IMG/VR virus record: IMGVR_UViG_3300043540_000288
Location: 1 to 22,167 of that record
DNA from: a virus
Direction: 5' to 3' (one strand)
DNA: 22,167 nucleotides
Both the position numbers and the translations under genes were made by a program. This document shows positions 1-17,980 of the stretch, piece by piece. Under the pieces are notes generated by a model that made no database searches, had not been told where the DNA came from, and saw only the letters and a list, made by a program, of their open reading frames with translations. Within the stretch, counting starts at the first letter, position 1, and each line of letters starts with the position of its first letter.

Positions 1-694
1 ATGGTTTACTTGATAAGAATAAAGAATAATTAACATCTTGAATACCTGATAAATTACTCCCATCACCATAATATGTTGCATTCAAAATATTATTTCCACC
101 CATATTTAAATTTCCACTCATTGTATCGCCTGCTTTTAAGACATAATTACTTGCAGTTATATTATCTGGAATATCGCTATCTGTTAGTTGTAAATTAGCC
201 GATGGAACATATCCACCATCATTTAATTTAAGCAATTTATTAGCAGTATTAAAAGTATTGCCTTGTAAAGTAACGCTTGAAACGATTAAATTTAAAGGAT
301 TTGTCAAACTTCCATTTCCAAAAAATTGATTAGTATTAACTTCTATTGCTATTGAACCACTTCCAGCACTTGTCATTGAAGTCCCATCTTGAAATATAAT
401 TCCGTGCGAACCTGTTGTTGTTGAAAATATTAAATTTCCATTAGTTATCATTACATAATTGCTATAACTATTAACACAAAACAAAGGATTTAATATACAT
501 TGCTGATATTCTGGTGGGACATCCCCTTGTGATAGCATATCTGTATTATTTTGTAAGAACCTAAAATTCTGGTTAATACCGCTTATGTCTTTTTGGCTAT
601 CTTTAATATAATAAGGTGCTTTAATATCCAAAGCAAAAAGGTTAATCAATGTTAAAAGGTTAACTAATGTTAACTTTAATAATAATTTTTTCAT
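1..694 (-). CDS. Tail fibre-like protein, N-terminal part (cut by window edge)
   Basis: An open frame of 231 codons starts at ATG 694 and runs off the left edge, so the C-terminus is missing. The first ~22 residues (MKKLLLKLTLVNLLTLINLF) are a basic end followed by a long hydrophobic run, as in a Sec signal peptide. Further on are the phrases AGDTMSGNLNMGGNNI and YYGDGSNLSGI. Both are typical of phage tail-fibre and side-tail-fibre shafts, the latter often upstream of an S74-type chaperone domain, which would lie outside the window. The body is rich in N, G, S and T and predicted beta. The start overlaps the stop of the ATP-grasp gene in an ATGA junction, so translation is probably coupled. 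It is the last visible gene of the operon, fitting a receptor-binding protein. Confidence 0.75.
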   Translation of the reverse strand, partial: MKKLLLKLTLVNLLTLINLFALDIKAPYYIKDSQKDISGINQNFRFLQNNTDMLSQGDVPPEYQQCILNPLFCVNSYSNYVMITNGNLIFSTTTGSHGIIFQDGTSMTSAGSGSIAIEVNTNQFFGNGSLTNPLNLIVSSVTLQGNTFNTANKLLKLNDGGYVPSANLQLTDSDIPDNITASNYVLKAGDTMSGNLNMGGNNILNATYYGDGSNLSGIQDVNYSLFLSSKP

Positions 695-2031
695 AAATAT
701 TCTTTTAAAAACGAATAATCTTCTAATTGCTTTACTACTCTATCTGAAATATCGGTTCTATAATAACTTTTTGGAACATAAACTTTGGTTAAAACATTAT
801 TATATAAATTATATTTCGCATTTTCAATTGTCTTACCTTTGGCTGTTGCTACCAGAACATAAGCGCCAATGGTTAATATATCATCACCATTTTTTATAAC
901 TTCGCAAAAGTGTAAATTATCCTTTATCTCCTCATCGTATATAACAGGGATATATTTCATCCTTTCTTTTGCTTCATCTGTTGGAAATCCTTCGCCTAAT
1001 AAGACCGCTCCAATAGCCCATTCATCATAGAACTCAACTTCTAAATCCTCACCGCTGGCAATAGTGTATAAGAAATCAGTCCATCTTGTTTTATGAAGTT
1101 CTTGCTCTATATATATACTTGGATAACCACAGCGGGGAGTAAATTCCAATGGATATATATCACCATTTTTATCTATGATAGTATTTATATCCAAATTTCC
1201 CCTGAAATCCACTTCTTTTAGCCAATCTGTCATTTTATATAATGTTTCCCTGAATAGTTTATTATCCTTGCCAACTTTTTTAATTATGGTCCCCATTTCT
1301 CCCGTGCTAAATCCCTGTCCTTCTATATTATTTTTATTACCTGTAGCAAATTTCTTATGCTCAAAATTTATATCCAAAGCAAGCCAATCTTTGCCATTAA
1401 AAAATCCGCCACAAGCAATCTCGCAACAACCTAAAATTCTTTTCTCTAATTCTATCTTGTTTATTATTCCTATTTCTTTTCTTAATTTTAATCCTTCCAG
1501 ATAGATTATGGTATCCCTATTATCTTCCATTTCGCCAATTAAAGTTAAAGAACTATCTATTGGTTGCTTGCTTTCTGGCTTAATAACATAGGGTCCATTA
1601 TGATTATTTAAATAATCTATTGCTTTATCTATATTGTTAAACTCAACCATTTCAAATCTTTTGCCTATTCCAAAATGCTCAAATAACTTATGTCCAAATT
1701 TTCTGTCCTGCTCTAATTGCTCACCAAATTCATAACCATTAAATGTCTTGCCTAATATACTAATTCTATTCTTATAAGCAATGCCAAATACAGGTTTTTT
1801 GCTGTTTTTAGCAAGTCGTTTTTCTGTTTCTAAATCGTTAGTATCAAATATAATCAAATCAGCCCATTGAATAGATGGGATATAGTTATTGACTTTTTCA
1901 ATAGGAAACCCATCATATTGCTGGCGTTCTTCTTTTTCTTCAATATAGAACCTAATAAAATTACCTTCTTTATATAACCTATATGCTAAATCTAATGCAT
2001 CGCCTGACTTGGATATGAATAAGATTTTCAT
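691..2031 (-). CDS. PurD-like ATP-grasp carboxylate-amine ligase
   Basis: 446 residues, about the length of phosphoribosylamine-glycine ligase (PurD, ~430). Visible ATP-grasp elements: a Rossmann-like start (MKILFISKSG), a central HFGIGKRFE segment resembling the GIPT region, VIKP with a candidate ATP-contacting Lys151, GQGFSTGEMG at 238-247 matching PurD GPNTGGMG, and PLEFTPRCGYPS at 294-305 matching EFNxRFGDPE, with Glu296 as likely metal ligand. The usual Asn of EFN is Thr and the GDPE end is CGYPS, so the substrate is probably not the PurD one. Family knowledge: ATP-grasp enzymes join a carboxylate to an amine through an acyl-phosphate. No other purine gene is near. It sits between the large ejection-like protein and the tail fibre with ATGA overlaps on both sides, so it is made with virion proteins. 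Start ATG 2031 follows AAAGG. Substrate unknown; a tailoring enzyme for nucleotide, DNA, peptide or cell wall are all possible. Confidence 0.72.
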   Translation of the reverse strand: MKILFISKSGDALDLAYRLYKEGNFIRFYIEEKEERQQYDGFPIEKVNNYIPSIQWADLIIFDTNDLETEKRLAKNSKKPVFGIAYKNRISILGKTFNGYEFGEQLEQDRKFGHKLFEHFGIGKRFEMVEFNNIDKAIDYLNNHNGPYVIKPESKQPIDSSLTLIGEMEDNRDTIIYLEGLKLRKEIGIINKIELEKRILGCCEIACGGFFNGKDWLALDINFEHKKFATGNKNNIEGQGFSTGEMGTIIKKVGKDNKLFRETLYKMTDWLKEVDFRGNLDINTIIDKNGDIYPLEFTPRCGYPSIYIEQELHKTRWTDFLYTIASGEDLEVEFYDEWAIGAVLLGEGFPTDEAKERMKYIPVIYDEEIKDNLHFCEVIKNGDDILTIGAYVLVATAKGKTIENAKYNLYNNVLTKVYVPKSYYRTDISDRVVKQLEDYSFLKEYL

Positions 2032-5000
2032 TTTATTACCTTTCCTTTTCTTTTTAAATGATATTCTAAATATCTTTGCTGTGCTTCTTTAACTAATATT
2101 TTATATTGAATATCCGCTATTTTATCCATTTTCCCTGTTTGATATGGCAAATATAATGCTGAAGGCGGTCTTTTGGCTTTTAATCCCGGCAATTTTTCAT
2201 AATAAGGCAAATTCTCCGTAGCAAATGGCAAGTTCTTTTTCATTTCTTGAGAAAAAGTTGTTGATTTTCTATACACCGGGTCGTATATATTATTAACATA
2301 TCTAATAAGCCCTTCAAATGGTATCATTTGCCCTAATGGATATGCTAATGTATTACCAAAGTTTTCAGTTATACTAATTCTACCGCTAATAGCGTCCATA
2401 AAATCCTTTATTCCAGACAATGGAGTTTGCTCTGTTATTAACCTAATAGAAGATATAACTGCTTTAGAAATAACTCCTATTTCACTATCTGCTAATGCTT
2501 TTTTTTGCTCTTTCATATAATAATGTAATGCTTCTGGCATTATTAAGGATATAGCATAAGGTCCAAAATACCACATAGGTATCCAATGCCCATTTATTTC
2601 AACTGACATTGGTCTTCTGCCAGAATTATAAAATGCTTGTTTTTCTTTATCGTCTATAGGCGGTAGCCAGGTTACTTTACCTTCTGAAGCCAATTTAGCG
2701 CCTAATACAAACAATTGACTACCCATTAAAGCGTGTCCTATTTGCTCTTTACTATATTTACCGCCAATAAACCCTAATGGACTTCTTTCTATTCCTAATT
2801 TTGCTATATTTATAGGCGTAGTAACAAATGGAGCAAAGAAACTTGCCACAGGACCAATAACAGGTTTCCTTCTTAATTCTAATATCATTTTACCTAATTC
2901 GTCTAATGCTCTAACAAAAACTGGTTCATCTTTAATATCAGTTCCTAATTTTTCCCTAAAAAGCAATTTTTCAGCAGTTTTCTTTGCTAATTCTTCCGCT
3001 TTATCTTCTGCTATTCCTTTTCTCATTAGCCATGCTTTTTCGCCAGAAGCAATTAAAACACTAAAAAATTTATCCGATGCTTCCATAAGATTTGGAATTA
3101 CTCTAAAAGCAAATGGCATTTTAGCCCTCATCATTTCTGTTAAATAATCTTGTCCTGTTACTGGTCTATCAATTATTTTAGTTGAAATATTTCCACTTCT
3201 AAATGCTTCTAAAAACGCTGTTGACGCTTCTGGTATTGTTTTAGCGATGCTTTGATAATATTTTGGTATATCCATTAACTTAATATCTCTGGCTATTGGA
3301 TTAAAGAGATGTCTAAACATATCATATTCCCATTCTCCAATCATATCTAAAGGTTTTGTCATAATTGCTTGACCTAAATTTCCTGTTAAATTTCTTTCGT
3401 GCGTTAGTGGATTAGATAGCATATTATTATATCGGTATCCCTCAAACCAAGTTTTTAATTTTGCTCTTAAAGGAAGTTTATCATATACCGAATTTAATAA
3501 TTCCAATGTCGCTTTTGTCTTTTCTTCACCATCTGGCATTTTACCTATTTTCAGCATCCCTTTAGTTAGCATATCTTTTAATTCTGGTTCTAATTTAACT
3601 CCCATTTTATTAACTGTTTTATCTATACTATTTACAAATCCTCTGGGTGATAATCTATTCCATAAAGTAGCAAGTTGAATTTCTCTACCTGCTTTCCTAA
3701 ATTTATTATCAAATTTATCTATTAAATCCACTACTTTATCATAATCTCCAATTGCTTCATATTTCTTCATTAACCTAATTCCAACTGCCATATTAACTGG
3801 AGTTGATGGTTCTGCTAAAGCGTCTTCTATTGCTTTATCCGCTCCTTTTTCTTTTATTATTTTATCTGCTTGCTTTAATACTTCTTTATTAGGCAGTTGT
3901 GTATAATCCTGCGGCTTAATATCCTGAACTTTTTCTTTTAATCCTTCTGGCGTTACTTTTGATGTTTCAACGGTTTCAATAAACCCTCTTTTTCTCTTGC
4001 CTGGCATTTCCGTTGGTTTTTCGCCAATTCCTTCGGTAGGTGGCTCTTTTATCCCTTTATAAAATTCAAATCTATTTTTATTTGCTTCCCACCATTTTTG
4101 TGCTTTTTCTTCTGGCATTATATTTTTATCAAATCTTATTGCTTGAATAACTTCTTTGCCCGTTTCCTTATCTTTACCAACTATATAGGATACTCCTGGC
4201 GTAGTTGATTTTCGTCTAAAATATCCTTCTACTTTTTCTGGTGGATATAATCTAAATCTACCTTCATTTTTAGTTGAATTTGGGTCAAAAGAAAATGGTC
4301 GTTCTTCGCCAATACTCCATTGTGGCTCTATTGGTTTAACTTCTGGTTTAGCAACTTCTGGCTTGGCTTCTGGTTTTACTTCTGGCGGTGGGACAACTCC
4401 TTCTTTTGCCGATTTATTTATTGCTTCATTTATAACATTTTCTGCTTCTGTCTCTTTTATTGGTATTTTCTTTCGCTTAAACAAATCTTTTATATACATT
4501 TTTACACCGCTAATATCATCAAAACTTCTGACTATTTTATTGCTAATTGCCGCTTTTATAATAAAATCTGCCAAATTAAAACTATCTCTAACCCAATCTG
4601 GGCTTGATTTTGGGATAATGCTATCTACATTAAACAATTTATCTAATCCCATAAATACTGCTGTTTGCTTACCTGCTTCTGCCAAAAACGGGATTAACCT
4701 TCCTGCTGCTACCGCTTCTCCACCAGTATAAACAAAAGCACCCATCATTCCTGCCTGTAATGCTTTGGCTGGAATATCTTTACCTGCTGTTGGAATACCT
4801 CTTTCTTGTAAGTATCTGGTAGTATATTCATTAAAATTCTTTTCTACTTCCTCGTGGCTTACTCCATATTCTTTTGCTAAATTAGAAACTATTTGAAATC
4901 TGTTTATTTCTTGTGAAGATGGCTCATAAGCAGGTGGTTTTATTTCTGTTGCAGTAGCAGTTCCTCTTGTTGCCACTTCAAATTCTGGTCTTGTTGGCGG

Positions 5001-5198
5001 TGGCTGATAAGCGCCTATGGTTGGTTCTTTTGTTGGAATATTAGGTGTCGTTTGTAAAGTAATATCAGGTTTTTGAGGAATAATAGGTTTTGTTGGTTCT
5101 TGTAATTTTTGTTTTCTAATTAAAGATAGTTTTTCTTCAATTGTTAATTTTTGCTTTTTTTGTTCTCTTATTTGTGCTAATTTTTCTTCTATAGTCAT
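2028..5198 (-). CDS. Large putative ejection/internal virion protein
   Basis: 1056 residues. Order of parts: two tandem copies of TIEEKLxxIRxQK (residues 2-14 and 19-31); a Pro/Thr-rich linker; a Gly/Ala-rich hydrophobic stretch near 150-190 that could contact membrane; a second Pro-rich linker (EVKPEAKPEVAKPEVKP); a region ending in KWWEANKNRFEFY; a helical region with QLATLWNRLSPRGF and YNNMLSNPLTHERNLTGN; and a later hydrophobic segment (GPVASFFAPFVTTPINIAKL). The LSNPxTHxRNxxGN phrase recurs in very large phage polyvalent or internal virion proteins. It follows two smaller genes in the position of the P22 ejection proteins gp7, gp20 and gp16. Inferred role: carried in the particle and delivered with DNA across the envelope. 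No lytic transglycosylase signature was recognised. Start ATG 5198 overlaps the upstream stop (ATGA) and has only a weak Shine-Dalgarno, so coupling is likely. Confidence 0.6.
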   Translation of the reverse strand: MTIEEKLAQIREQKKQKLTIEEKLSLIRKQKLQEPTKPIIPQKPDITLQTTPNIPTKEPTIGAYQPPPTRPEFEVATRGTATATEIKPPAYEPSSQEINRFQIVSNLAKEYGVSHEEVEKNFNEYTTRYLQERGIPTAGKDIPAKALQAGMMGAFVYTGGEAVAAGRLIPFLAEAGKQTAVFMGLDKLFNVDSIIPKSSPDWVRDSFNLADFIIKAAISNKIVRSFDDISGVKMYIKDLFKRKKIPIKETEAENVINEAINKSAKEGVVPPPEVKPEAKPEVAKPEVKPIEPQWSIGEERPFSFDPNSTKNEGRFRLYPPEKVEGYFRRKSTTPGVSYIVGKDKETGKEVIQAIRFDKNIMPEEKAQKWWEANKNRFEFYKGIKEPPTEGIGEKPTEMPGKRKRGFIETVETSKVTPEGLKEKVQDIKPQDYTQLPNKEVLKQADKIIKEKGADKAIEDALAEPSTPVNMAVGIRLMKKYEAIGDYDKVVDLIDKFDNKFRKAGREIQLATLWNRLSPRGFVNSIDKTVNKMGVKLEPELKDMLTKGMLKIGKMPDGEEKTKATLELLNSVYDKLPLRAKLKTWFEGYRYNNMLSNPLTHERNLTGNLGQAIMTKPLDMIGEWEYDMFRHLFNPIARDIKLMDIPKYYQSIAKTIPEASTAFLEAFRSGNISTKIIDRPVTGQDYLTEMMRAKMPFAFRVIPNLMEASDKFFSVLIASGEKAWLMRKGIAEDKAEELAKKTAEKLLFREKLGTDIKDEPVFVRALDELGKMILELRRKPVIGPVASFFAPFVTTPINIAKLGIERSPLGFIGGKYSKEQIGHALMGSQLFVLGAKLASEGKVTWLPPIDDKEKQAFYNSGRRPMSVEINGHWIPMWYFGPYAISLIMPEALHYYMKEQKKALADSEIGVISKAVISSIRLITEQTPLSGIKDFMDAISGRISITENFGNTLAYPLGQMIPFEGLIRYVNNIYDPVYRKSTTFSQEMKKNLPFATENLPYYEKLPGLKAKRPPSALYLPYQTGKMDKIADIQYKILVKEAQQRYLEYHLKRKGKVIK

Positions 5199-6169
5199 TT
5201 TATTACTTCATATTTATCTAAAATTTCTTTTTCTGAAGTTCCCATTGCTTTTAATTGATTAAACTCGTCTTGAGTAATTTTTTCTTTTGTTTTCTTGGTA
5301 GTTTCTTCTTTTTTTGGTAAAATACTACTTTTTAATGATTTTAAAAAGTTTGAAATTTTAGTATAAATCTTTTCTTTATCTCCTTCGTTTCCCTTTTTAA
5401 TTGGTTCTAATATTTCAAACTTTAATTTAGAATTGCTTGCATTTATTTGTTTAGCATAGTTATTATAATTTTCAATTTGCTGATTGATATAATTAACATT
5501 TTCTTCATCATCAACATCTATTCCACTAACAATATTCTGAATATTTAATCCCATTTTCATAACATCATCTATTATTCCTGCTATTTCTTTTGGAACTTCG
5601 CCTGCTTTTTGCTGTGCCATTTGGCTTATTTTAGAATAATATTTATCTTTTATATCTAATCCTTTAACTTTAGTATATTCATCCACAGTCATCTGGGAAA
5701 CTCCCCATTTTTTTTGTTCTTCTGGAGATAATGTTATTAGCGTTGGAGTTGGTTTTGTCGCTTGATAATATACTTTCCCTAATTTTTCTATATCGGACGC
5801 AATATATTCTTTTCCCACTTCTAAAAATGGATATATTTTTTTAAGTTCTTCTGTTGCTGTAAATTTCTGTTCTGGCTCTTTTTTAGTTGCTAAACTTAAA
5901 AAATCAGAAATAGGTATACTTTTCCCTTTTAATGGCGATAATTTGGTCTTTAATTCATCGGGTAATGTTCCTAAAAATTCATCATTTATTGGTATAGTAT
6001 ATTTTTCCCACTCTTTCTGTTTTTGTTTCTTTTCTATCATCCCGCCAATACCTTGTGATAAACCTTGAATAGCGGACAATGCTCCTGATGTAATTCCGCC
6101 ATATTTAGTTCTTATCGCTTCCATCGCTATATCTTCAAACCTTCTCGGTCTTGGTATAAATTCTGGCAT
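5195..6169 (-). CDS. Putative internal virion/ejection protein
   Basis: 324 residues, not recognised as a named family. The N-terminus has a Gly/Ala/Ser-rich amphipathic stretch (GALSAIQGLSQGIGGM, about 27-43) followed by a basic KKQKQKEW segment; the middle is mixed and Lys/Glu-rich. The C-terminus ends in EFNQLKAMGTSEKEILDKY, a small helical phrase I associate with the tails of phage internal proteins. It lies between the 199-aa Ala/Gln-rich protein and the 1056-aa protein, matching the three-gene ejection cassette of P22-like phages, with ATGA overlap to the next gene. Start ATG 6169 is well supported by AAGGAGG seven bases upstream. The role is inferred mainly from position. Confidence 0.5.
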   Translation of the reverse strand: MPEFIPRPRRFEDIAMEAIRTKYGGITSGALSAIQGLSQGIGGMIEKKQKQKEWEKYTIPINDEFLGTLPDELKTKLSPLKGKSIPISDFLSLATKKEPEQKFTATEELKKIYPFLEVGKEYIASDIEKLGKVYYQATKPTPTLITLSPEEQKKWGVSQMTVDEYTKVKGLDIKDKYYSKISQMAQQKAGEVPKEIAGIIDDVMKMGLNIQNIVSGIDVDDEENVNYINQQIENYNNYAKQINASNSKLKFEILEPIKKGNEGDKEKIYTKISNFLKSLKSSILPKKEETTKKTKEKITQDEFNQLKAMGTSEKEILDKYEVIK

Positions 6170-6190
6170 AAATCCTCCTTATGGTATTTA

Positions 6191-6790
6191 TCATTTCCCT
6201 AATATACTCCCTACTCCACTTATTATTCCGCCGAATATATTCCCCCACATACTTGTCTTTGCAGCTGACTTCATTGCTTTTAATTGTTCTTTTAACATTC
6301 TCTCTTCTTCCTGCATTGCCAATTGCTGACCTAATGCTTGTGCTAAATTTAAATACATCTGTTGATTAGCCTGGACATCTACGCCCCACGCTTGCATTAA
6401 CGCTTGTGCCATTGTCTCTGCTTGCTTTTGCGCTAATGCTCCCCTTACCTGCGCTTCCTGTTGCAATGCTCCTAATCTTGCTCCAAGCATACCAGCGGCT
6501 TCTATATCGCTACCTCTTAATCCCCTTGCTCCTGCTTCACTTTGGGCTATTGCCGCCTGTTGTTCTCCTGTTTGTCTTATCGCTTCTAATTGCGGTTGAA
6601 TATATTGACCCTCTGTAGAAACCTGTTGCTGAATATAAGGCAGAATGCTTGACATTGTCTGCGAGGTGCTTTGCCTGATTAAATCTAATATATTACTCGT
6701 TGTTGGTGCAAGATTTGTCAACTTGCTATAATCAATATTCAATGTAGGTAAGTTTGGTAAACCGCTTGGGCTTCCTGTTCCATTGGGCAT
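6191..6790 (-). CDS. Ala/Gln-rich putative DNA ejection protein (P22 gp7-like in position)
   Basis: 199 residues, very rich in Ala and Gln in the middle (for example GARLGALQQEAQVRGALAQK), consistent with long helices. The N-terminus is Pro/Ser/Thr-rich and disordered-looking. The last ~18 residues (SMWGNIFGGIISGVGSILGK) form a Gly-rich hydrophobic tail ending in Lys, which could insert in membrane. This layout resembles small injected proteins such as P22 gp7 or T7 gp14, but I see no identity strong enough to name it. It is the first of three consecutive ejection-like genes. Start ATG 6790 has a strong AAAGGAGG site. Confidence 0.55.
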   Translation of the reverse strand: MPNGTGSPSGLPNLPTLNIDYSKLTNLAPTTSNILDLIRQSTSQTMSSILPYIQQQVSTEGQYIQPQLEAIRQTGEQQAAIAQSEAGARGLRGSDIEAAGMLGARLGALQQEAQVRGALAQKQAETMAQALMQAWGVDVQANQQMYLNLAQALGQQLAMQEEERMLKEQLKAMKSAAKTSMWGNIFGGIISGVGSILGK

Positions 6791-6800
6791 ATTTCCTCCT

Positions 6801-9734
6801 TTAATCCCATCCTATTTCACGATAAACTGCAAGAATATTATATAAATGTATTGGTCCCTGCTTTCCTTGATTATTGGCTATTTCAAATTTAATCCAATGA
6901 AAAGCAGTAGCAGTTGCTACAGATGGGAAAAATTTTGCTACAAAATAACCTTTTTCTTTTGCCTCACTTAATCCAACCGTTCCCATACTATAAGCAGTAG
7001 TTGAACCATCTATATAATATTTTACACTTAAATCAATATTTTGTCCACTTATTTCTTCTGATTTCAGGACTAAATAGACACGCTTCAATATCTTTTTAGA
7101 ATACGGATTGCCAAAATCATTATCATTGGTAATCAATTTATAATCAAACGAATTTCCATTATCGTCTAACCCTACATCTTGCTTGTAAATATAACCCGTA
7201 TCCTGACTATCTCCCGTATATAATTCCCTATTATAAATAACCGCAGAGTAGGCGTTGATATCGTCAAATAAAGTCCATTTATCATTACTATCAAGGACCA
7301 GAACGCTATCATTATGTGCCTCTGTAGCGGTATTTGTTGTATAGAATAGCCAATATCTATCCCTATAAACCGAACTTGCTACAGGTGGTCTTTGCTCGCC
7401 TTCGTTCCATTCCAAAGTTAAAGCATCTAATTTTATTGTTTCCGTTGTTGATGTTGGGGTAAATTCAATTTTAGTCCCCAAATATGGTGCAGTGTCAACT
7501 GCTATTTTAATATTTGGCGATTGCTCTGTCCAGGAAGCAGTTGACCTTGTTACCTGATTACAGGAATTGCCAGAAGTAACATAATATTTTAATGTGGCAT
7601 TGCCATTTAAATTATAAGTTGGTCTATAATTGCCCCAAGAAGTTACCCCTGTAGTTTCTATGCAATCAGGGATATAATATCCTGTTGAGGTCGCATTAAG
7701 CGTAACATCGTCTATTTGTGGCGTAACCGTGCTATAATTGGTATAAAAATTTGCTTTATACTGCCAATATTGTTTAGGCGCTACAATTCTTAAAGTATCC
7801 GAAGTTGCTGTCCAATCTGACCAGGTCCCATAAGGTGAACTTGCATATCTGACAAAATAGTCAATCTGCGTCTCTGCTGGAGTTGAATATGTAACATCAA
7901 AAGGACCGCCTACAGGTGTTGGAATACCTGTGTTAAAAACTTGAGAAGTAAATGTGCCTGAAAAATAATACATTGGTGTATAAATACTATCAAAAGTAAT
8001 ATAATCTTGAGGATATCCAGAAACAACACAATATAGTAAAATATAATTACTCTCATTATAAGTGGTATCAGTAACACTTTGTGTTATAGTCCCTAATGTT
8101 ATAGTAAATTTCCCATTCCTGTCTCGTTCAATATACCATAAATTACTATCCATATTATCTTTTGTTGTTTGAAAAGTTAATAATGTTGTTGGTGTTCTAC
8201 TCGCTACTTTTTTAAGTGATATAATATAAGTATTAAGTTCATACTGTTTTGATTGGATGTCTAATAAATATCCATCAGTATTAGCATATTGGTTTAAATA
8301 ATTTACCCCCTCTTGAAAAGAAACATCATTACCTTTTGATATAAAATATAACCTACTATAAGTCATAACATTATCTGCGTGTCTGTAATGAGTAAGTTTA
8401 AAAGACCACTTTCCCATTGTTAAAGTTGATGTGGAAGTATATAGATAACCACCATATACTCCCGTTTGATTAAGTTGAAAATTAACGGCATAATTAGAAA
8501 CTGACCAGGGATTATATGAACCACCATTAAGAATATTCCAAGTGGGATTATTCGTATAATTACCATCATCAAAGTTGTCTAATAAATTCATATTATAACT
8601 CAATATTAAACTTCCATCAATTATAGTAGTTGACACATTAACCAAAGTTCCATATCCAAAATCAACAGCCGTAGTATCTGTCTTTGACCAAGTAGAGGGG
8701 ACAACATTACCAGGGTCTATGGTAGTTGAAGTCCATTCGCCATTAGTCAATCCCGCTTCCCATTCCGACTGCGTGTCATAAGTTTTAGTCCTTTTATTGC
8801 CCGCAGATTTAATAATCTCATCAACATTTGGTCTAATAGGGTCAGAAACCCTTTCAATAGAAGTTCCAGACATTCTTTCTATTCCCCTTTTAGATAGCCA
8901 ATATAAAGCATTATTCTTTTCTTTTACGCTATTTTGGTCTATACATCCAATTTCATTGGATAATTTAACCAAACTGAAATTACGCCTATCATAACCATAT
9001 AAAGCATATAAATCATCTTCCCTGCCTATTAAATAAGCGCCTTGATAAGTTCCCATTAAGCAGGTTATTCTTTTACCATCATTAGTTCCAGATATATCTA
9101 TACTTGCCGGCGATGTTGAATATCCAGGTATTTCTAATGTCCAATCAGTTCCATTTCCTTCGCCAGATAATCTTATTCTTGATAACTCGCCAGATATATT
9201 GCCAACAATTAACCTATTAGCAAAAGTATCAATTAAAGTCGGTTTAGCATTTGAAGGTAAAGTAAATGTTCCTGTAGATGTTCCGTCCCAATAGAAATTA
9301 TTATCAACGCCATTAACACACCATAATTTGCCTAATGATTGAACGCATTGCATATCATTAGTAGCATTTAGCCCTGATATAATAGCAGTGCATTGCCCAT
9401 CGCCTTTTGAATAATAAAGTGTCTGGCTTGCTAAAAATACCATATATTTTTGATTATCGGTAGCGTTAAATGTCCACATCCCCCTTATTTTCTTGCCATC
9501 GCCACAAGGGGATGAATTATATTTAGAATACCCATTTCGTCTTAAAATAGAAGCATCTTCGTCAAATACTATATTCTTAATATCGGTAAGGCATTCAAGA
9601 TTTATTTTATTAGAAGCATATCTGGTAACCAAACCACATTTACCAAAATCAGGATATTGGAATACCTTTTCGTCTTTTGTAGGAGTTTGAGAAAAAACAT
9701 TTATCGCAAATAAAAATATTGGCAATAATTTCAT
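6801..9734 (-). CDS. Large beta-rich tail protein, nozzle/stopper-like, with signal peptide
   Basis: 977 residues. A signal peptide is likely: MKLLPIFLFAINVFS then QTPTKDE. Shortly after comes FDEDASILRRNGYSKYN, followed by strand-rich repeats around bound-looking phrases (YMVFLASQTLYYSKGDG, LWCVNGVDNNFYWDG). This opening (V/F-D-E-x-x-S-xx-RR-x-GY) is common in phage tail proteins with a beta-propeller, such as podovirus nozzle or stopper proteins. The middle holds lectin-like beta segments (residues about 380-590), then Trp/Tyr-rich sheets. Its start overlaps the stop side of the next gene leftwards only by spacing of ten bases, while its own start (ATG 9734) overlaps the adaptor stop in ATGA. 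It directly follows the adaptor gene, the usual place for a nozzle gene. Contains many Cys for a cytoplasmic phage protein, for instance near residues 33, 49 and 77. Confidence 0.6.
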   Translation of the reverse strand: MKLLPIFLFAINVFSQTPTKDEKVFQYPDFGKCGLVTRYASNKINLECLTDIKNIVFDEDASILRRNGYSKYNSSPCGDGKKIRGMWTFNATDNQKYMVFLASQTLYYSKGDGQCTAIISGLNATNDMQCVQSLGKLWCVNGVDNNFYWDGTSTGTFTLPSNAKPTLIDTFANRLIVGNISGELSRIRLSGEGNGTDWTLEIPGYSTSPASIDISGTNDGKRITCLMGTYQGAYLIGREDDLYALYGYDRRNFSLVKLSNEIGCIDQNSVKEKNNALYWLSKRGIERMSGTSIERVSDPIRPNVDEIIKSAGNKRTKTYDTQSEWEAGLTNGEWTSTTIDPGNVVPSTWSKTDTTAVDFGYGTLVNVSTTIIDGSLILSYNMNLLDNFDDGNYTNNPTWNILNGGSYNPWSVSNYAVNFQLNQTGVYGGYLYTSTSTLTMGKWSFKLTHYRHADNVMTYSRLYFISKGNDVSFQEGVNYLNQYANTDGYLLDIQSKQYELNTYIISLKKVASRTPTTLLTFQTTKDNMDSNLWYIERDRNGKFTITLGTITQSVTDTTYNESNYILLYCVVSGYPQDYITFDSIYTPMYYFSGTFTSQVFNTGIPTPVGGPFDVTYSTPAETQIDYFVRYASSPYGTWSDWTATSDTLRIVAPKQYWQYKANFYTNYSTVTPQIDDVTLNATSTGYYIPDCIETTGVTSWGNYRPTYNLNGNATLKYYVTSGNSCNQVTRSTASWTEQSPNIKIAVDTAPYLGTKIEFTPTSTTETIKLDALTLEWNEGEQRPPVASSVYRDRYWLFYTTNTATEAHNDSVLVLDSNDKWTLFDDINAYSAVIYNRELYTGDSQDTGYIYKQDVGLDDNGNSFDYKLITNDNDFGNPYSKKILKRVYLVLKSEEISGQNIDLSVKYYIDGSTTAYSMGTVGLSEAKEKGYFVAKFFPSVATATAFHWIKFEIANNQGKQGPIHLYNILAVYREIGWD

Positions 9735-10439
9735 TTTTTACTCCCTACGAGTGAAGGTGCGTAATTAGGCATATTTATACATTGATTTTTACCTATTGTC
9801 ATTATCGCTTGATATTGCGATATGAATACATTAGCAAGGTTATCCCTTTCATCTATTAAAGAGCATTTATAAGCCGCATAATAAACCAATGCATAAGAAT
9901 ATGCTTCAAATTCTTTATAACCATCAAAAGGTTTATCAGTATCATTAGATAAATCAGTTGAATAAGAATAATAATCAATTCTAATAGTTCCTGTATCAGA
10001 TGAGGTCTCTGGAAATGGGGCAAATCCAATAACTCCTCTTGTTGAAAAATTTATAAAATAATAAGTTGGAAGTCCGCTTTGAACTTCCCATTCACTTCCC
10101 CTGCTATCCAATGCAGCAACCGATAATTCAGTTAAAACATAATAATCCCTTGTAACCCGTCTTATTGATAGAAAATCATCTGGCAATTGATAATAAGTTG
10201 TATTTGTTTCTAATTCAAATGAATATTGCTTTAGGTTGCAAAGCGTAGTAATATCCCATAATTTTTGTCCTTCATTTATAAATTGATTTAATTGACTATC
10301 TGAAAACCTTTGCCTTGCTGTAACCGTGTCATTTATTAGGACCCTTACTTGATTTCTTATTTCGGATAATGTTAATGAGTAGACATTAGGAAGGAATAAA
10401 CTTAAAAAAAAAAGCCAATAAAGATATTTTTCTGGTCAT
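9731..10439 (-). CDS. Head-tail adaptor (SU10-type), frame interrupted at a T10 run
   Basis: The body reads LSEIRNQVRVLINDT, RFSDSQLNQFINEGQKLWD, YYQLPDDFLSIRRVT and a C-terminal EFEAYSYALVYYAAYKCS, a pattern I associate with podovirus adaptor proteins that dock under the portal. No ATG exists in this frame; the first usable start is TTG 10186, which would remove the N-terminal helices. However, ATG 10439, behind AAGAGGTAATT, opens a 17-codon frame (MTRKISLLAFFFFKF...) that stops at 10386. If one T of the run at 10404-10413 is skipped, the two frames join into 235 residues beginning MTRKISLLAFFLSLFLPNVY, a textbook signal peptide followed by LTLSE. So the gene is either frameshifted by a sequencing or real one-base insertion, or expressed by slippage on the run. 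The stop overlaps the nozzle-like gene's start in ATGA. Confidence 0.7.
10404..10413 (-). other. T10 homopolymer at the adaptor frame break
   Basis: Ten consecutive A on the plus strand (T10/U10 in the mRNA), inside the hydrophobic core of the adaptor's predicted signal peptide. Removing one base joins the frame starting at ATG 10439 to the adaptor body. Runs of nine or more A/T are known sites of polymerase slippage and also of sequencing length errors. Confidence 0.85.
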
Positions 10440-10441
10440 AA

Positions 10442-10591
10442 TTACCTCTTTTTTCGTTTCGCTTTTTCAGGCAAACTCTTAAATCTCTTGGTATGTTTTA
10501 GCCATCGTTCAGTCGTTCCTTTTGGCAATTTACCTTTCTTTTCCTGAACTGCGAAAAATCGCATTTGCTTTTTACTGCGAAATGGACTCAT
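10442..10591 (-). CDS. Small basic phage protein, 49 aa
   Basis: A 49-residue frame from ATG 10591, eight bases after AAAGGAG, to TAA 10442-10444, three bases before the adaptor start. It begins MSPFRSKKQMRFFAVQEKKG and ends TTERWLKHTKKFKSLPEKAK plus a run of basic residues. The pattern SKxQxRFxxA ... WxKHTxxxKxLPE is widespread in small proteins encoded in phage head-tail regions; no function is established to my knowledge. The high positive charge (about one-third Lys/Arg) is compatible with binding DNA or the acidic faces of connector proteins. Its fit to the operon and good ribosome site make it a real gene. Confidence 0.75.
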   Translation of the reverse strand: MSPFRSKKQMRFFAVQEKKGKLPKGTTERWLKHTKRFKSLPEKAKRKKR

Positions 10592-10603
10592 TATAATCTC
10601 CTT

Positions 10604-11017
10604 TTAATCTTTACTATCGTATTGAATTTCGCCTACAATATAAACACTTCCAGCAATTCCATCCTGTAATCTGGCATATATAGGCGCTTCATTATAGTCC
10701 TCAATATAATATTTAACAAGTCCTAATTTCTGTCCATTACTTGAATTAGTGCAAGTAGTTCCTGAAGTTGTAGTCGTAGATAAACAAATAAAGCCAGGCA
10801 AAGCAGTAGAAGTGGTTTCTATTATAGAATATCGTCTTGTATCTTGAGTTGATAAAACAGCGGTCCAAGAAGTTGAGGCAACAGAAACACTAAAAGGAAC
10901 TCTTGTATTTCCATTATTTATATATGTCTTTGTAACCGAATAATCCTGTCTTGGTGCTGATTTAATAACGCCATATAAAGCAATTATGCCTATGAATATT
11001 ATTATTATTTTTCTCAT
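10604..11017 (-). CDS. Small beta-rich virion protein with signal peptide
   Basis: 137 residues. The N-terminus (MRKIIIIFIGIIALYGVIKS then APRQDYS) is basic then strongly hydrophobic, with an Ala-containing possible cleavage site. The rest is Thr/Ser/Tyr-rich and predicted beta, with two Cys (FICLST and GTTCTNSS). The family is not recognised. It lies between the capsid block and the adaptor, where many phages place head-fibre, decoration or connector-associated proteins. It has an AGAGGAT site before ATG 11017. Next to it is another small protein of similar size with the same kind of N-terminus, so the two may form a pair. Confidence 0.5.
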   Translation of the reverse strand: MRKIIIIFIGIIALYGVIKSAPRQDYSVTKTYINNGNTRVPFSVSVASTSWTAVLSTQDTRRYSIIETTSTALPGFICLSTTTTSGTTCTNSSNGQKLGLVKYYIEDYNEAPIYARLQDGIAGSVYIVGEIQYDSKD

Positions 11018-11028
11018 AAATTATCCTC

Positions 11029-11439
11029 TTATGAGCAAGCAGTTGTAGATGAAGTTATTGCTGAAAAATCACCAGCGTCTGTTCCTGTGGAGATGCAAAC
11101 AGGAACTGAACAATTGCTACAATAATAAATTTCACCGACAGATGCTGGAGTGATAGCAGCAATTTCCGTTTTTGTTTTTGAATAAAGTTTTATTGCCCCA
11201 GTCATTGACACATAGTCAGTATATACAGAAGCAACCTTATAAGTAGCATTTCCTATCTTATAAGTGCTTGCCGCTCCAGGTATAAAGTCGCCACTTGAAT
11301 TGACACGCCAGAAACTATATTTGCCTGACATATTATACCCCAAAGTCGCATAATCGCCCTTTTCAGCAACAACTTGATAGCCAAAATCCATTACAATTGC
11401 TAATATAGATATAACAATGGCTATTTTAATAAACTTCAT
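11029..11439 (-). CDS. Small fibre/decoration-like virion protein with signal peptide
   Basis: 136 residues. It starts with a hydrophobic stretch (MKFIKIAIVISILAIVMDFG) that could be a signal peptide or anchor. The body contains DYATLGYNMSGKYSFWRVNS, GDFIPGAASTYKIGNATYKV and, near the end, YYCSNCSVPVCIST. Such W-R-V-xx-x-G-x-F-x-P ... STYxxGN phrases occur in short phage fibre or decoration proteins. The clustered Cys near the C-terminus could form disulfides if the protein is exported, or bind metal. ATG 11439 follows GGAGGTTATT. It is placed between the capsid-side helical protein and a similar-sized exported protein. Confidence 0.55.
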   Translation of the reverse strand: MKFIKIAIVISILAIVMDFGYQVVAEKGDYATLGYNMSGKYSFWRVNSSGDFIPGAASTYKIGNATYKVASVYTDYVSMTGAIKLYSKTKTEIAAITPASVGEIYYCSNCSVPVCISTGTDAGDFSAITSSTTACS

Positions 11440-11472: not shown

Positions 11473-11958
11473 TTATCTATCTTTTCGGATATAATTAAGG
11501 TCTGATATAAACGGGTCGTCAGGTTCAAGCAATCTTCCTAATCTTTTCCATTCCTGAATAGCAGCCTCTATTTTAGTATTACTTAACCTTTCAGTTGCTT
11601 TTCTTACCGCTGTAGTAAATTCGGGGTCAGACCTATCGTATATATGTAATTCTCGTCTGGTTTCAAGATAAGGCATAAATATTTTCTCAAGTTCTTCCCT
11701 TCTTTTCTTTATCTTATCTCTTTTAGCAGGGTCAGTAACTTTTTGAGGCGAATGCTCTTCAAGTTGCTTTTCAAGTGTCTTTATTTGTTCTCTTATTTTA
11801 GCCCTATCTATGCTTATTTCGTCAAGTTCCACAGTTGTGAAGTCATTAGTTCCGAACTCTTTAGAAGCGTTTTGCAATTCCTTTAATTCCTGAATATCAC
11901 GCTTCTTTTGTTCTATTTCCTGTGGGGTTAACAATGGTTTGTTATCTTGTCTTGTCAT
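11473..11958 (-). CDS. Uncharacterised helical, charged phage protein
   Basis: 161 residues, dominated by Glu, Lys, Arg and Leu, with a coiled-coil-like first half (PQEIEQKKRDIQELKELQNA; REQIKTLEKQLEEH) and a second half ending in DPFISDLNYIRKDR. No family was recognised. It follows the major capsid gene at 29 bases, with a strong AGGAGG before ATG 11958. By position it may be a capsid- or connector-associated protein, but nothing in the residues shows this. Its stop codon lies in a short AT-only inverted repeat (11457-11478). Confidence 0.75.
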   Translation of the reverse strand: MTRQDNKPLLTPQEIEQKKRDIQELKELQNASKEFGTNDFTTVELDEISIDRAKIREQIKTLEKQLEEHSPQKVTDPAKRDKIKKRREELEKIFMPYLETRRELHIYDRSDPEFTTAVRKATERLSNTKIEAAIQEWKRLGRLLEPDDPFISDLNYIRKDR

Positions 11959-11987: not shown

Positions 11988-12881
11988 TTAGCTCGGATTA
12001 TTCCCGTATACCCATCTCCACTCTACCGTAGAGACAGCACAAGAGAAATATCCAGCTAATTTAAGAACCATAGTATCAAATTCACCGCTTCTATAGAACT
12101 GAACCGGCTCCCATTCTCTAAATATTAAATGGTCTTTCATCATCTCGCTATTTACCAAGAACCAAGCGGAAGTTGATGTTAAAAAGTTATCCCATATAAT
12201 AGCATTATATCTACCTTTTAGATAGTTTCTATTATTGAAGTCAGTATCAACTTTTCCAGCTGATTTGATAACTTCATAAATATCCTGTTCAAGGTCCATA
12301 GGGGCAATTATCGTATCTGGAATATTCCACATTATCTGGTCGGCATTGGTCTTAAATTTCTTAAAATAATTCTGGACGGTAAATAGATTTGCCGCGGAGA
12401 AAGCCAATGAACCAGTATTACTTTGATTAGACCCGCCAACTTTAGAGGTATGGGCGGAATAACAAAGAGGGTTGCCATCGCCAACCGTAAAGGTAGTAAA
12501 AGCATTATTAAATACCTGTGCGCCAAGTATTTCCCTTTTTGCTCTTGCAGCTTCGGCTAATCTCCTCACTGCCGCTTCCGCTACTCCATAAAGGTCATTT
12601 CTCAAAAACCTTCTCGTAAACTTAAGACCTTTAGAATATTCAACTTCGGTTACTGACTTTTTATAGCCCTCTTTCCAATCTGAATATTGAACCTCGCCAT
12701 TAAACTCCTCAAACTCACCTATATCGCCTGTCTCAAGGTCATATTCAGTTCCCTGTTCCGCATCTTTGAACTGAAATATATACGGAAGCATTGATTTAAA
12801 GTCCTTATATTTTTTTAAGAATATAAGACTTAAATCTTTCTGAACAACTGAGCCCCAATTTCCTACGCCTATTGTAGCCAT
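11988..12881 (-). CDS. Major capsid protein
   Basis: 297 residues. The sequence has the look of an HK97-fold capsid protein: a short N-arm, an acidic EFEEFNGEVQYSDWKEGYKK segment compatible with the E-loop, a long helix EAAVRRLAEAARAKREILGA (spine helix), a NPLCYSAHTSKVGGSNQSN loop, and a C-terminal A-domain half (NADQIMWNIPDTIIAPMDLE, WFLVNSEMMKDHLIFREWEP). The LxxxxH...GGxxxSN phrase recurs in Mu gpT-like and related phage capsid families. No protease or delta-domain-like extension is visible; assembly is presumably guided by the separate scaffold gene upstream. It lies directly after a putative decoration gene, with AAAAGGAGTATAAT before ATG 12881. Confidence 0.85.
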   Translation of the reverse strand: MATIGVGNWGSVVQKDLSLIFLKKYKDFKSMLPYIFQFKDAEQGTEYDLETGDIGEFEEFNGEVQYSDWKEGYKKSVTEVEYSKGLKFTRRFLRNDLYGVAEAAVRRLAEAARAKREILGAQVFNNAFTTFTVGDGNPLCYSAHTSKVGGSNQSNTGSLAFSAANLFTVQNYFKKFKTNADQIMWNIPDTIIAPMDLEQDIYEVIKSAGKVDTDFNNRNYLKGRYNAIIWDNFLTSTSAWFLVNSEMMKDHLIFREWEPVQFYRSGEFDTMVLKLAGYFSCAVSTVEWRWVYGNNPS

Positions 12882-12936: not shown

Positions 12937-13725
12937 TTAATCTATTGGATGAAGCGCAGTATTAACTAACTGCAATAAATAGTAAATGCTGAATTGAGAA
13001 AGGCTATTAAGCCCTGTCAATCCACCGTGATTATTCGGGTCAAGCATTTCATCAAGCCCATTTCTCTTGATATATCTTGCCAGAATATTGCACCTTCCAG
13101 TTCCAACTGCGGCAGTCGTTCCAACTTTTGTTCCTGCCGTCGCCGAAGGCGCAGTCCAAACTATTGCCTGATGAAATAACGGCAATATTTTGCAGACATA
13201 AGAAGTGTTATCTATTGCCGTTGAAAATGCTGTTGGAATAGTGCAAGAGCCAGAAGCAGAAGTATTTATAAACTCTATCTGCCCAGCGCCAGCGCCAGAG
13301 GCAACATATAAAAAGCCAGTATCTATATTATCCTCAAGGGAAGTTATAGTTACGGTTTTCGTTCCAGCATTATATCCAGCAACAGCAATTTTTGAAGTTA
13401 AATCCTGCTCTATTCTGACTATCGTATGGGCATCGCAAATCTCAACTAATCTTGACGGATATGCTAAATCATTTCCGCCAGCAGGTGCGAACCAACTAAC
13501 AGAACCATCTACAAGCGCATCGCCTGTTTCCGAATAATCGTGAAGTTCTGCAAGAATACCAACCACATCAGCATTTGAAGCCGCAGTATTTTTTATAAGA
13601 ACGCCATCATCTGTTTCGGCAGTTACGCCAGGCATAACAAAAGAGCCAGGAAATATATCCGCTCCACCGCCATAAATAGGCATTCTGATTAACCTTGACT
13701 TTAATGATTGAACTACTTCAGCCAT
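12937..13725 (-). CDS. Putative capsid decoration/structural protein
   Basis: 262 residues, Gly/Ala/Thr/Ile-rich and predicted beta throughout (for example GTKTVTITSLEDNIDTGFLY). The part near residues 25-60 (PGSFVMPGVTAETDDGVLIK, then NADVVGILAEL) resembles small beta-barrel decoration proteins, which often precede the capsid gene. The remainder (residues about 110-190) looks like a second beta domain, and the C-terminus (GLTGLNSLSQFSIYYLLQLV) is helical. It lies between the scaffold block and the major capsid gene with TAAGGAG before ATG 13725. An identity as decoration or head-associated protein follows from position and composition only. Confidence 0.5.
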   Translation of the reverse strand: MAEVVQSLKSRLIRMPIYGGGADIFPGSFVMPGVTAETDDGVLIKNTAASNADVVGILAELHDYSETGDALVDGSVSWFAPAGGNDLAYPSRLVEICDAHTIVRIEQDLTSKIAVAGYNAGTKTVTITSLEDNIDTGFLYVASGAGAGQIEFINTSASGSCTIPTAFSTAIDNTSYVCKILPLFHQAIVWTAPSATAGTKVGTTAAVGTGRCNILARYIKRNGLDEMLDPNNHGGLTGLNSLSQFSIYYLLQLVNTALHPID

Positions 13726-13780: not shown

Positions 13781-14212
13781 TTATAATTTTGGTGTATTTT
13801 TGGTTTCTACGGAGGGTATGTCTTGAATTTTTATCTTGGATGAGTGTTTACTAAAACAAAGAGGACAACCAGCATTCTTGCTATATTTTTGGTCAGGAAC
13901 ATATTCAGTTCCTATAACATTACCATCTTTATCTTTAATGTCATTAGTCGTTACGGTTATTTTACCGCCAGCGCCGTTGCCATCATCAGAACCGCCGCTA
14001 TGGTCAACTTTTTGAATATCAACAAGATGACCACATATCTGACATTTTACTTTTCGCTTAAAAGAACCTGGTCCCTGTAATGCTCCTGTTCTAATATTAT
14101 TCTTTCTTAATAATCCATCGCCTTTTGTCTCACTTGGGAATGCATCTTGGCATTCAGAGAACAACTTCTTTTCTGGTATCTGTCCTGGAGCATCACCATA
14201 ATTTTTTAGCAT
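13781..14212 (-). CDS. Small protein with two CxxC pairs (probable zinc ribbon)
   Basis: 143 residues. Two Cys pairs, CQICGHLVD at 57-60 and CPLC at 116-119, could make one split zinc ribbon; a Gly/Asp-rich insert (HSGGSDDGNGAGG) and a beta hairpin separate them. The N-terminus contains KKLFSECQDAFPSETKGDGL. No family name can be given. It is between the scaffold and the decoration-like gene, so a role in head assembly is possible. ATG 14212 is preceded by AAAGG at nine bases. A TTGACA lies at 14226-14231, but no -10 box places a start before this gene. Confidence 0.6.
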   Translation of the reverse strand: MLKNYGDAPGQIPEKKLFSECQDAFPSETKGDGLLRKNNIRTGALQGPGSFKRKVKCQICGHLVDIQKVDHSGGSDDGNGAGGKITVTTNDIKDKDGNVIGTEYVPDQKYSKNAGCPLCFSKHSSKIKIQDIPSVETKNTPKL

Positions 14213-14239: not shown

Positions 14240-15034
14240 CTATTTTCCTTTTTGCAATTCCTTTAAATCATCTTTACAACTTATTTCAATTCCATTGCCA
14301 TATCTTTTATAATCATCTAATACTTTTAAGTTTTCATTTTTTAATTTATTAACTTTTCTTTCAATTGTTAATCTCTCAAAGTCACGCATATCGCTTGTAT
14401 CAACTTCAAGTTCATCAACTTCTTCTCTTTCTTCTCCTTTATTAAATTTCTGGCTTGAGTATGATTTATCTGTCATCTTATCTCCCACTTTTCCTTTAAC
14501 ATATGTTTCAGCTTTAGCAAGCAATGATTTTAATTTTACAGGGTCTTTCTTAACTTCTTCTGGATAGTCATTAAGAAAATCCTGTATATCTTTTTCATAT
14601 CTCAAAAAAGCAGGTTTACTTTTGAAGTAATTATAAATTTCTTTTTCATAATTTGATTTCTTTTCAAATTCCTCAAGTTTTTTATGCGCTTCAAGAGCCT
14701 TATTTTCTGTTTCCTTTAATTTCTTTTCCCACTCTTGTTCTTTAATTTTAAAAATATTATCAATGACCATTAACTGCTCTTTAGTCATTCCTGTTTTTTC
14801 AGTAAACTCCTGCCATTGTTCTTCAGTCCAACTCTGCTGTGCCTGTTGAGGCGTTGTATCTTTTTGACTTAAAAAAGATTTAGCTGCCTCTAACTGCCCT
14901 TCAAGTTTCGCTTTTTCTTCCCTTAATTTTATTATCTCTTCCTGATTATCTGTTTTGCTATCTTGCTTTTTATCCTGCTCATTAGCCAGTGTGTTATTAT
15001 CCTGCTCGTTATCTTTATTTTCTTCTGTAATCAT
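14240..15034 (-). CDS. Capsid scaffolding protein
   Basis: 264 residues, hydrophilic and acidic, with a Glu/Asp/Gln/Asn-rich disordered start and long Lys/Glu coiled-coil stretches (IIKLREEKAKLEGQLEAAKS; WEKKLKETENKALEAHKKLE). The C-terminus is Lys-rich (DDYKRYGNGIEISCKDDLKE), as expected for the capsid-binding end of scaffolds. Size, composition and place between portal and capsid genes fit a classical scaffold that is lost on maturation. ATG 15034 shares one base with the preceding gene's stop (TAATG) and has GAGGAGG at a good distance, so translation is coupled. Confidence 0.75.
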   Translation of the reverse strand: MITEENKDNEQDNNTLANEQDKKQDSKTDNQEEIIKLREEKAKLEGQLEAAKSFLSQKDTTPQQAQQSWTEEQWQEFTEKTGMTKEQLMVIDNIFKIKEQEWEKKLKETENKALEAHKKLEEFEKKSNYEKEIYNYFKSKPAFLRYEKDIQDFLNDYPEEVKKDPVKLKSLLAKAETYVKGKVGDKMTDKSYSSQKFNKGEEREEVDELEVDTSDMRDFERLTIERKVNKLKNENLKVLDDYKRYGNGIEISCKDDLKELQKGK

Positions 15035-15448: not shown

Positions 15449-15470
15449 ATTAAAAAACAAACAATGTCAA
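15442..15470 (-). promoter_or_regulatory. Consensus sigma70-type promoter of the head operon
   Basis: Reading the minus strand: TTGACA (15470-15465), a 17-base spacer, TATAAT (15447-15442). All twelve consensus bases match. The -35 box overlaps the portal stop codon (TGA inside CTTGACA). The predicted start is near 15435, at a decoy ATG, giving a leader of about 24 bases before the 125-aa gene. Confidence 0.8.
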
Positions 15471-17483: not shown

Positions 17484-17750
17484 TTACTTTTTGCTTCTTT
17501 TCTTTTTTCTTAATTTGCTTTTTTTAGCATCTCTTTTTTGTTCAGCAAATTCTCGTTTAACTTCGCCTCTTTTTCTACTTTTAGCACCTCTTTGTGCCAT
17601 CCAAGTTGCAAGAGCATATGGTTCTTTGACTTTACTTTTATGTTTTTCAAGTCCTCGTGCAATAATATCTCTTTCATCTCTTGCAGGACTTCCTCTCTTC
17701 ATACTTAATTTTTTCCAATCTTCTTTACCGCTAATAGAAACAGTTTTCAT
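17484..17750 (-). CDS. Small very basic phage protein
   Basis: 88 residues, with 30-40 percent Lys/Arg. The central phrase VKEPYALATWMAQRGAKSRK resembles the short 'xxPYALAxWM' segment of many small phage proteins next to portal genes; the function is not established. The C-terminal third (EQKRDAKKSKLRKKKRSKK) is almost pure charge and could bind nucleic acid. ATG 17750 has AAAAGGAGAT seven bases upstream. It sits directly between the zinc-ribbon gene and the portal. Confidence 0.65.
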   Translation of the reverse strand: MKTVSISGKEDWKKLSMKRGSPARDERDIIARGLEKHKSKVKEPYALATWMAQRGAKSRKRGEVKREFAEQKRDAKKSKLRKKKRSKK

Positions 17751-17752
17751 AT

Positions 17753-17980
17753 TTATCTCCTTTTAAGATATTGTTCTGGAATTGGTTTTATTTCAGCCAT
17801 AGTTTTTTGTGTTAAGCCTTCTCGGGAGCAAAACGGGCAGAAACGACTTTTTTCTTCAAACAAGCGACCACATTTAGTGCAAGTGAACAATCGTTGATTT
17901 GGTTTTATTTTTTCTAAATCTGAACTTCTTATTTCGCTTTCTACCCGTTCTCTTCTAATATCTTCTTCGTATCTTGACAT
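17753..17980 (-). CDS. Small zinc-ribbon protein
   Basis: 75 residues. Four Cys in the order C34-x2-C37-x10-C48-x2-C51 (FTCTKCGRLF ... RFCPFC) make a compact zinc ribbon. The N-terminal 30 residues are charged and helical (RYEEDIRRERVESEIRSSDL). Such ribbons bind nucleic acid or proteins; no specific family is recognised. ATG 17980 lacks a clear Shine-Dalgarno, but the stop of the previous 55-aa gene (TAA 17986-17984) is only three bases upstream, suggesting translational coupling. Confidence 0.7.
   Translation of the reverse strand: MSRYEEDIRRERVESEIRSSDLEKIKPNQRLFTCTKCGRLFEEKSRFCPFCSREGLTQKTMAEIKPIPEQYLKRR

Follow-up and report, generated by a model that had tools for sequence, protein, structure and literature searches.

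In a lineage of uncultured short-tailed phages the proteins of the tail region carry N-terminal sequences with the character of cleavable Sec-type signals, while those of the head do not. From comparative sequence analysis, export of tail parts by signal peptides is strongly supported. We propose that heads are built in the cytoplasm, while the tails would be exported through Sec, trimmed and oxidized in the periplasm and joined to the heads later; we put the probability of this reading at about 0.7. The assembly of tailed phages is taught as a wholly cytoplasmic process. The head genes, the adaptor and the nozzle are all recognizable tailed-phage genes, and assembly in two compartments, if shown, would add a new way of building virions.

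The structural module and its N-terminal sequences

The window, by which we mean the whole stretch of DNA analyzed, is a virus record of 22,167 bases that encodes the structural module of a short-tailed phage on its minus strand. The genes run in the order terminase, GroES-like, portal, scaffold, decoration, capsid, proteins A and B, adaptor, nozzle, three internal-protein genes, ATP-grasp and fibre. Membership of the Caudoviricetes is indicated by PHROG or Pfam hits for capsid, portal and terminase alike. Profile hits underlie the names of the terminase, portal, capsid, adaptor and GroES, while the scaffold, decoration, nozzle and fibre proteins are named from position, size and homologues, and the largest internal protein from a PHROG hit. 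Neither protein A nor protein B has a family hit, and 'tail-region' describes their position only.

Signals were scored with a rule that requires a basic end, an uncharged core of eight residues and a cleavable end, tuned on Escherichia coli K-12 alone. Using annotated starts, 23 of 24 secreted K-12 proteins pass, and 2 of 60 cytosolic ones. An initial threshold of 2.2 recovered only 17 of 26 E. coli positives; thresholds from 1.2 to 1.8 are equivalent in result, and 1.8 was retained from the E. coli data alone. Four proteins were dropped from the calibration set: sfmH and csgC, which are secreted and had been missed earlier, and rrrD and ycdU, which were listed as cytosolic and passed. We take rrrD for a signal-anchor endolysin and ycdU for a probable membrane protein. 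The gene lists for E. coli and the phages were picked by hand from annotation, as were the 'tail' and 'other' labels of the control phages, some 'tail' labels in unannotated control records being guesses from position. Head genes and controls were given equal freedom of start codon.

A sequence-only reading of the window had proposed signals on five proteins, and all five genes are found on the minus strand where it placed them. Three of the five pass the rule. These are the tail nozzle-like protein of 977 amino acids (6801–9734, signal ∼9690–9734), for which the predicted signal and cleavage point are MKLLPIFLFAINVFS|QT, tail-region protein B of 137 amino acids (10604–11017, signal ∼10958–11017) and tail-region protein A of 136 amino acids (11029–11439, signal ∼11365–11439). 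The other two fail. The fibre-like protein (2–694), incomplete at the contig end, has the signal-like N-terminus MKKLLLKLTLVNLLTLINLFA (∼632–694) with polar residues within its core, followed by a conserved INQNFR stretch. The adaptor (9731–10439) is interrupted, its ATG half and its conserved half lying in different frames that are joined in a T-run inside the signal-coding part (10376–10439). The ATG half starts MTRKISLLA; the other half reads LSLFLPNVYS and then the conserved LTLSEIR, with its first own start codon only ∼60 residues in. The frame break may be a sequencing error, slippage or a real mutation. Relatives have intact adaptors, and in the set of eleven contigs described below the other 12 copies all pass.

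The absence of signals from the remaining virion proteins, also part of the earlier reading, holds throughout the window. None of the following minus-strand genes passes: the terminase large subunit (18826–20472), the portal protein (15467–17470), the scaffold-like protein (14240–15034), the decoration-like protein (12937–13725; this and the scaffold named by position), the major capsid protein (11988–12881) and the three ejection or internal virion-like genes (2028–6790; 1056, 324 and 199 amino acids). Applied to all window ORFs the rule is passed by 5 of 24. Two of these lie outside the original five, namely 17491–17763 on the plus strand, which overlaps genes on the opposite strand, and 20408–20770 on the minus strand, which is weak with a score of 1.95.

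Several other genes of the module merit description. A GroES-like co-chaperonin gene (18512–18817) adjoins the terminase gene and is retained in several relatives. Between the scaffold and decoration genes lies that of a small protein, p143 (13781–14212), with two CxxC motifs that are invariant in 10 of 10 homologues; it is probably a zinc ribbon. The ejection-like protein (2028–5198) matches the plant BRX domain (Pfam E 6.4e-7, above the cut-off), which is hardly a functional hint. The ATP-grasp gene (691–2031), between the fibre and internal-protein genes, resembles phosphoribosylglycinamide synthetase, with one Pfam domain scoring barely above its cut-off and one barely below. It occurs also in contig G008, and in the signal-less relative G012 it adjoins the terminase gene.

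Tail and head genes in related contigs

Do relatives keep the signals? A search with the nozzle led to contig L001, which is GC-rich and keeps the gene order of the window, and alignments then gave further relatives. The resulting set of eleven contigs, several of them fragments, spans GC contents of 0.33–0.61 and was fetched via tail proteins. Across it the signals are kept, with 39 of 44 tail-region proteins passing against 3 of 91 head and other proteins (Fisher p = 8e-25, not corrected for relatedness). Protein A passes in 8/8, protein B in 6/6, the adaptor in 12/13 (the window copy being the miss), the nozzle in 10/11 and the fibre in 3/6. There are no passes among terminases (0/8), portals (0/9), scaffolds (0/10), capsids (0/11), p125 (0/6), p143 (0/10), p161 (0/10), ATP-grasp (0/2), GroES (0/3) and p98 (0/3), nor among the eight homologues of the ejection and internal proteins (ejection 0/1, p324 0/1, p199 0/6). 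All three passes outside the tail region are decoration proteins (3/11, scores 1.81–2.45). We read these as false positives, because the scores are low and a long N-terminal part lies ahead of the core.

Since these relatives had come via tail proteins, a second set was fetched by capsid or portal alignments alone, giving 27 loci in 25 contigs, some of them near-copies. Here 30 of 34 tail-region proteins pass (protein A 8/8, B 7/8, adaptor 8/9, nozzle 7/8, fibre 0/1) against 6 of 129 others (decoration 5/17, GroES 1/8, the remainder 0/104). In the four tail misses, three of which are in contig L089, a hydrophobic N-terminal stretch is still visible by eye.

Nine records served as controls: P22, T7, SU10, CRP-7, VPMS1, MaAM05, two Manatee Spring phages and Hydrogenobaculum phage 1 (HP1). 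The rule is passed by 2 of 27 tail-labelled proteins, both of them SU10 fibres (2.09 and 2.11), and by 2 of 76 others, both from HP1. The 27 tail-labelled proteins come from eight records, HP1 having no tail-labelled gene tested. HP1 was considered as a relative, its terminase being 27% identical, and was kept as a control; of its 15 genes tested, none of which is tail-labelled, two pass.

These distributions leave a negligible probability that chance, the choice of start codon or a biased fetch has made ordinary N-termini look like signals. The rule does fire on decoration proteins in both sets, and 4 of 60 cytosolic E. coli proteins pass when any start is allowed, but the head genes and controls enjoyed that same freedom of start, the fetch by head genes repeats the split, and the adaptor sites described below were fixed by alignment. 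Alternatively, the N-termini might have nothing to do with export and serve in phage assembly or as prodomains, to be clipped off by a protease or retained as part of the structure. Such processing has a parallel in P22 gp7, which loses 20 residues to a host protease (P22 record note). Yet the combination of basic end, hydrophobic core and small −1 residue is repeated in five different tail-region families that share no other motif by eye, and terminase, portal, scaffold and capsid together give 0 passes in 38, so that we regard this explanation as very improbable.

Elsewhere in the family contigs the rule picks out additional signal-bearing ORFs, some in the tail cluster, as it would be expected to do in any phage. 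A Pfam search of 10 such genes gave no chaperone or disulfide-enzyme domain. A single query of viral contigs with the window terminase returned no relative, and bacterial and archaeal genomes, scanned twice with the nozzle and adaptor alignments, yielded no prophage, and hence no host.

A signal in front of a normal adaptor

The adaptor gene lies downstream of the capsid gene and immediately ahead of the nozzle gene. Its product is a normal head-to-tail adaptor by both Pfam profile (SU10_adaptor, PF24175; E 5.8e-17, 63.2 bits against a curated cut-off of 27) and fold. The structural model has a pLDDT of 82.6, and its top fold matches are tail entries of SU10, GP4, Pa223, VP1 and KHP30, the hits including 7z47_A (E 1.1e-8), 8jov and 7wmp.

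The junction between signal and adaptor was located by aligning 22 family adaptors on the conserved first helix, together with signal-less adaptors. An earlier version of the test, on 13 adaptors, relied on motifs written by hand, two of which were tailored to the G007 copies; the alignment of 22 gave a less perfect result, and it is this that is given here. The residue at −1, immediately before the point at which signal-less adaptors start, is A, S or C in all 22 family copies. With A, V, S or G demanded at −3, 17 of 22 fit a cleavage site (13/13 of the first set and 4/9 of the second), and if I, L, C or T are also admitted there 21 of 22 fit, the exception being L085. Three adaptor relatives from outside the clade have neither a signal (0/3) nor a fit to the cleavage site (0/3). 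Two of them start at or beside the landmark (MATLSSIR and MTLTEL), and the third, G012, starts within two residues of it. In a tree of 32 adaptors only one change of signal label is needed, with a support of 75/87 for the clade branch; several control branches are long, and the rows are labelled by clade, such that the window and L089 adaptors carry the label 'signal' while failing the rule. Taking the aligned junction, the signal-less outside relatives and the single label change together, the signal seems to have been added once, ahead of an otherwise ordinary adaptor.

The sequence-only reading had left it open whether the tail parts are exported or held in the membrane. Export is well supported, by signals that are conserved throughout a deep clade and lacking in the three adaptor relatives outside it, by the adaptor site and by the cysteines discussed below, while retention in the membrane is less likely because removal of the signal leaves a normal adaptor start. 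In a scheme of the latter kind the tail parts would be tethered to the inner membrane, on its outer face, by uncleaved N-terminal anchors and would wait there for a head to dock. Some of the signals are indeed long and hydrophobic, for example MKFIKIAIVISILAIVMDFGYQVVA of protein A. Against this stand the cleavage-type residues at the normal adaptor start, small at −1 in every copy and acceptable at −3 in all but one under the wide set; moreover, it is hard to see how a portal-bound ring could accommodate a retained helix on every one of its copies. We therefore consider anchored assembly unlikely.

Tandem pairs of adaptor genes, all signal-bearing, are found in three contigs (L018 9273–10696, L019 9285–10750 and L091 12511–13931).

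Paired cysteines in the tail proteins

If tail proteins form disulfides, their cysteines should be gained and lost in pairs, and this is seen in the nozzle and in proteins A and B. Aligning the nozzles of the eleven contigs gives 19 variable cysteine columns, of which 12 match another column exactly in their pattern of presence. In the window protein, covarying pairs fall at about residues 33/48, 77/115, 130/139, 225/264 and 691/725. Two more pairs differ only in the distant G006 or the shortened G003, and three columns are unpaired. Ten nozzle cysteines are common to the window, L001 and L008. Variable columns are paired in 4 of 7 cases in protein A, 2 of 2 in protein B (which has an invariant pair in addition) and 2 of 6 in the fibre. 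Among head proteins the count is 0/10 for terminase, 0/5 for decoration, 0/2 for capsid and 0/1 for p161, with none variable in p143. In the portal 3 of 7 columns share patterns, through the sister contigs G005 and G010 only. In total 20 of 37 tail columns are paired against 3 of 25 in the head, with scaffold, p125 and p199 left out of the count (Fisher p = 0.001, the columns not being independent). The suggestion that cysteines in several of the signal-bearing proteins would fit an oxidizing compartment is borne out for the nozzle and for both protein A and protein B, but not for the adaptor, where none of three variable columns is paired. Total cysteine content gives no separation of tail from head (terminase 1.32%, nozzle 1.28%, adaptor 0.72%), and a nozzle model built from six sequences has a mean pLDDT of 40, too poor to measure cysteine distances.

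Paired cysteines by themselves do not prove a periplasmic location. The main text on Agrobacterium phage Milano, which differs in having a contractile tail, describes disulfides that join tail and baseplate proteins; the words 'periplasm' and 'cytoplasm' do not occur in that text, and the disulfides are presented there without any claim of export (PMC10811340).

The pairing bears on a further explanation, that the signals are inefficient or bypassed, so that a cytoplasmic share of each protein builds virions while the exported share acts otherwise, for example by blocking receptors. The adaptor and portal must meet, which such a division would allow, and in 6 of 13 adaptors a start codon falls within six codons of the junction. 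However, such a start is absent from the other seven, and an internal translation start as a route round export is thus not conserved. Nor did the search of the eleven contigs, fragments among them, turn up a second adaptor or nozzle lacking the signal, and the paired cysteines suggest that the functional nozzle is the oxidized form. Overall this dual localization is decidedly improbable.

A possible scheme of assembly

Under the preferred reading, of exported tails and cytoplasmic heads, the capsid, scaffold, portal, terminase and internal proteins would remain in the cytoplasm. Precursors of the adaptor, nozzle, proteins A and B and fibres would cross the inner membrane via the host Sec channel. 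Signal peptidase I would then remove the signals, leaving the tail proteins to fold in the periplasm, with disulfides forming in the nozzle and in proteins A and B. We infer Sec and signal peptidase as the machinery and the periplasm as the site, assuming a diderm host. Unless export leaks, virions would be built from exported copies, given that the eleven contigs, some incomplete, showed no spare signal-less adaptor or nozzle and that seven of 13 adaptors have no nearby start.

Where do the two halves meet? The tails would encounter filled heads once the inner membrane opens, most simply at lysis, when the compartments mix; that joining takes place at lysis is a guess. The Amidase_2 proteins of L001 and L014 fit with exit by lysis. 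We lean slightly towards the strict form of the scheme, in which DNA-filled heads would form in the cytoplasm and disulfide-bonded tails in the periplasm. The two would join only at failure of the inner membrane, and the cytoplasm would never contain complete virions.

In ordinary phages the adaptor seals the portal directly after packaging. An exported adaptor would leave the retention of DNA unexplained, a point against the scheme. Our guess is that a separate head plug keeps the DNA in until joining, and p161, a protein of 161 amino acids without a signal, encoded between the capsid and protein A (11473–11958, minus strand) and conserved in 10 of 11 contigs, is a candidate for a cytoplasmic plug.

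If the scheme is true, an exported adaptor and nozzle break the wholly cytoplasmic rule, and how the head keeps its DNA becomes the question. It would also offer a route to disulfide-hardened tails and, more speculatively, could hide the tail proteins from antiviral sensors in the cytoplasm.

Relationship to other phages

The closest structural counterparts are the SU10/GP4/KHP30-like short-tailed phages, which share the adaptor profile and fold of the window. The difference lies in the N-termini: 25 of the 27 tail-labelled proteins from the control records fail the rule, and the two SU10 fibres pass weakly. Of 30 genes in Helicobacter phage KHP30, a phage with a close adaptor fold, two trigger the rule, and the adaptor-like ORF12 is not one of them.

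Virion proteins with Sec signals are familiar from the inoviruses, in pIII and pVIII, and pIII has disulfides. These filamentous phages are tail-less, contain single-stranded DNA and are extruded through the membrane, whereas the lineage described here has a double-stranded DNA head with terminase and portal. The presence of the latter two makes extrusion of the inovirus type unlikely.

Other phage proteins that use Sec signals are the SAR endolysins, the antiholin RI and the spanins; these have roles in lysis or exclusion and are not parts of virions. T4 RI is given as such a Sec-signal protein in PMC8385771. No Pfam lysis domain was found on the five window proteins proposed to carry signals; residues 811–914 of the nozzle match phrog_5107 ('amidase'), with no Pfam amidase on the nozzle. 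In open-access literature, covered mainly as titles and the starts of abstracts, no precedent for exported or signal-bearing tail proteins was found. On this weak evidence exported tail proteins are not known for tailed phages, the nearest cases being the inovirus coat and phage lysis proteins.

A signal-bearing protein of ∼1100 residues in the tail gene cluster of L018 (10701–14012) has YadA head repeats, a trimeric adhesin motif, and one in the G007 contig (L053 5938–6921) has a C1q domain. The record of Microcystis phage MaAM05 (L074, MW495066.1) carries lepA, proS, ftsH and hppA near a nozzle-like gene, and may be a piece of bacterial chromosome with a prophage rather than a phage genome.
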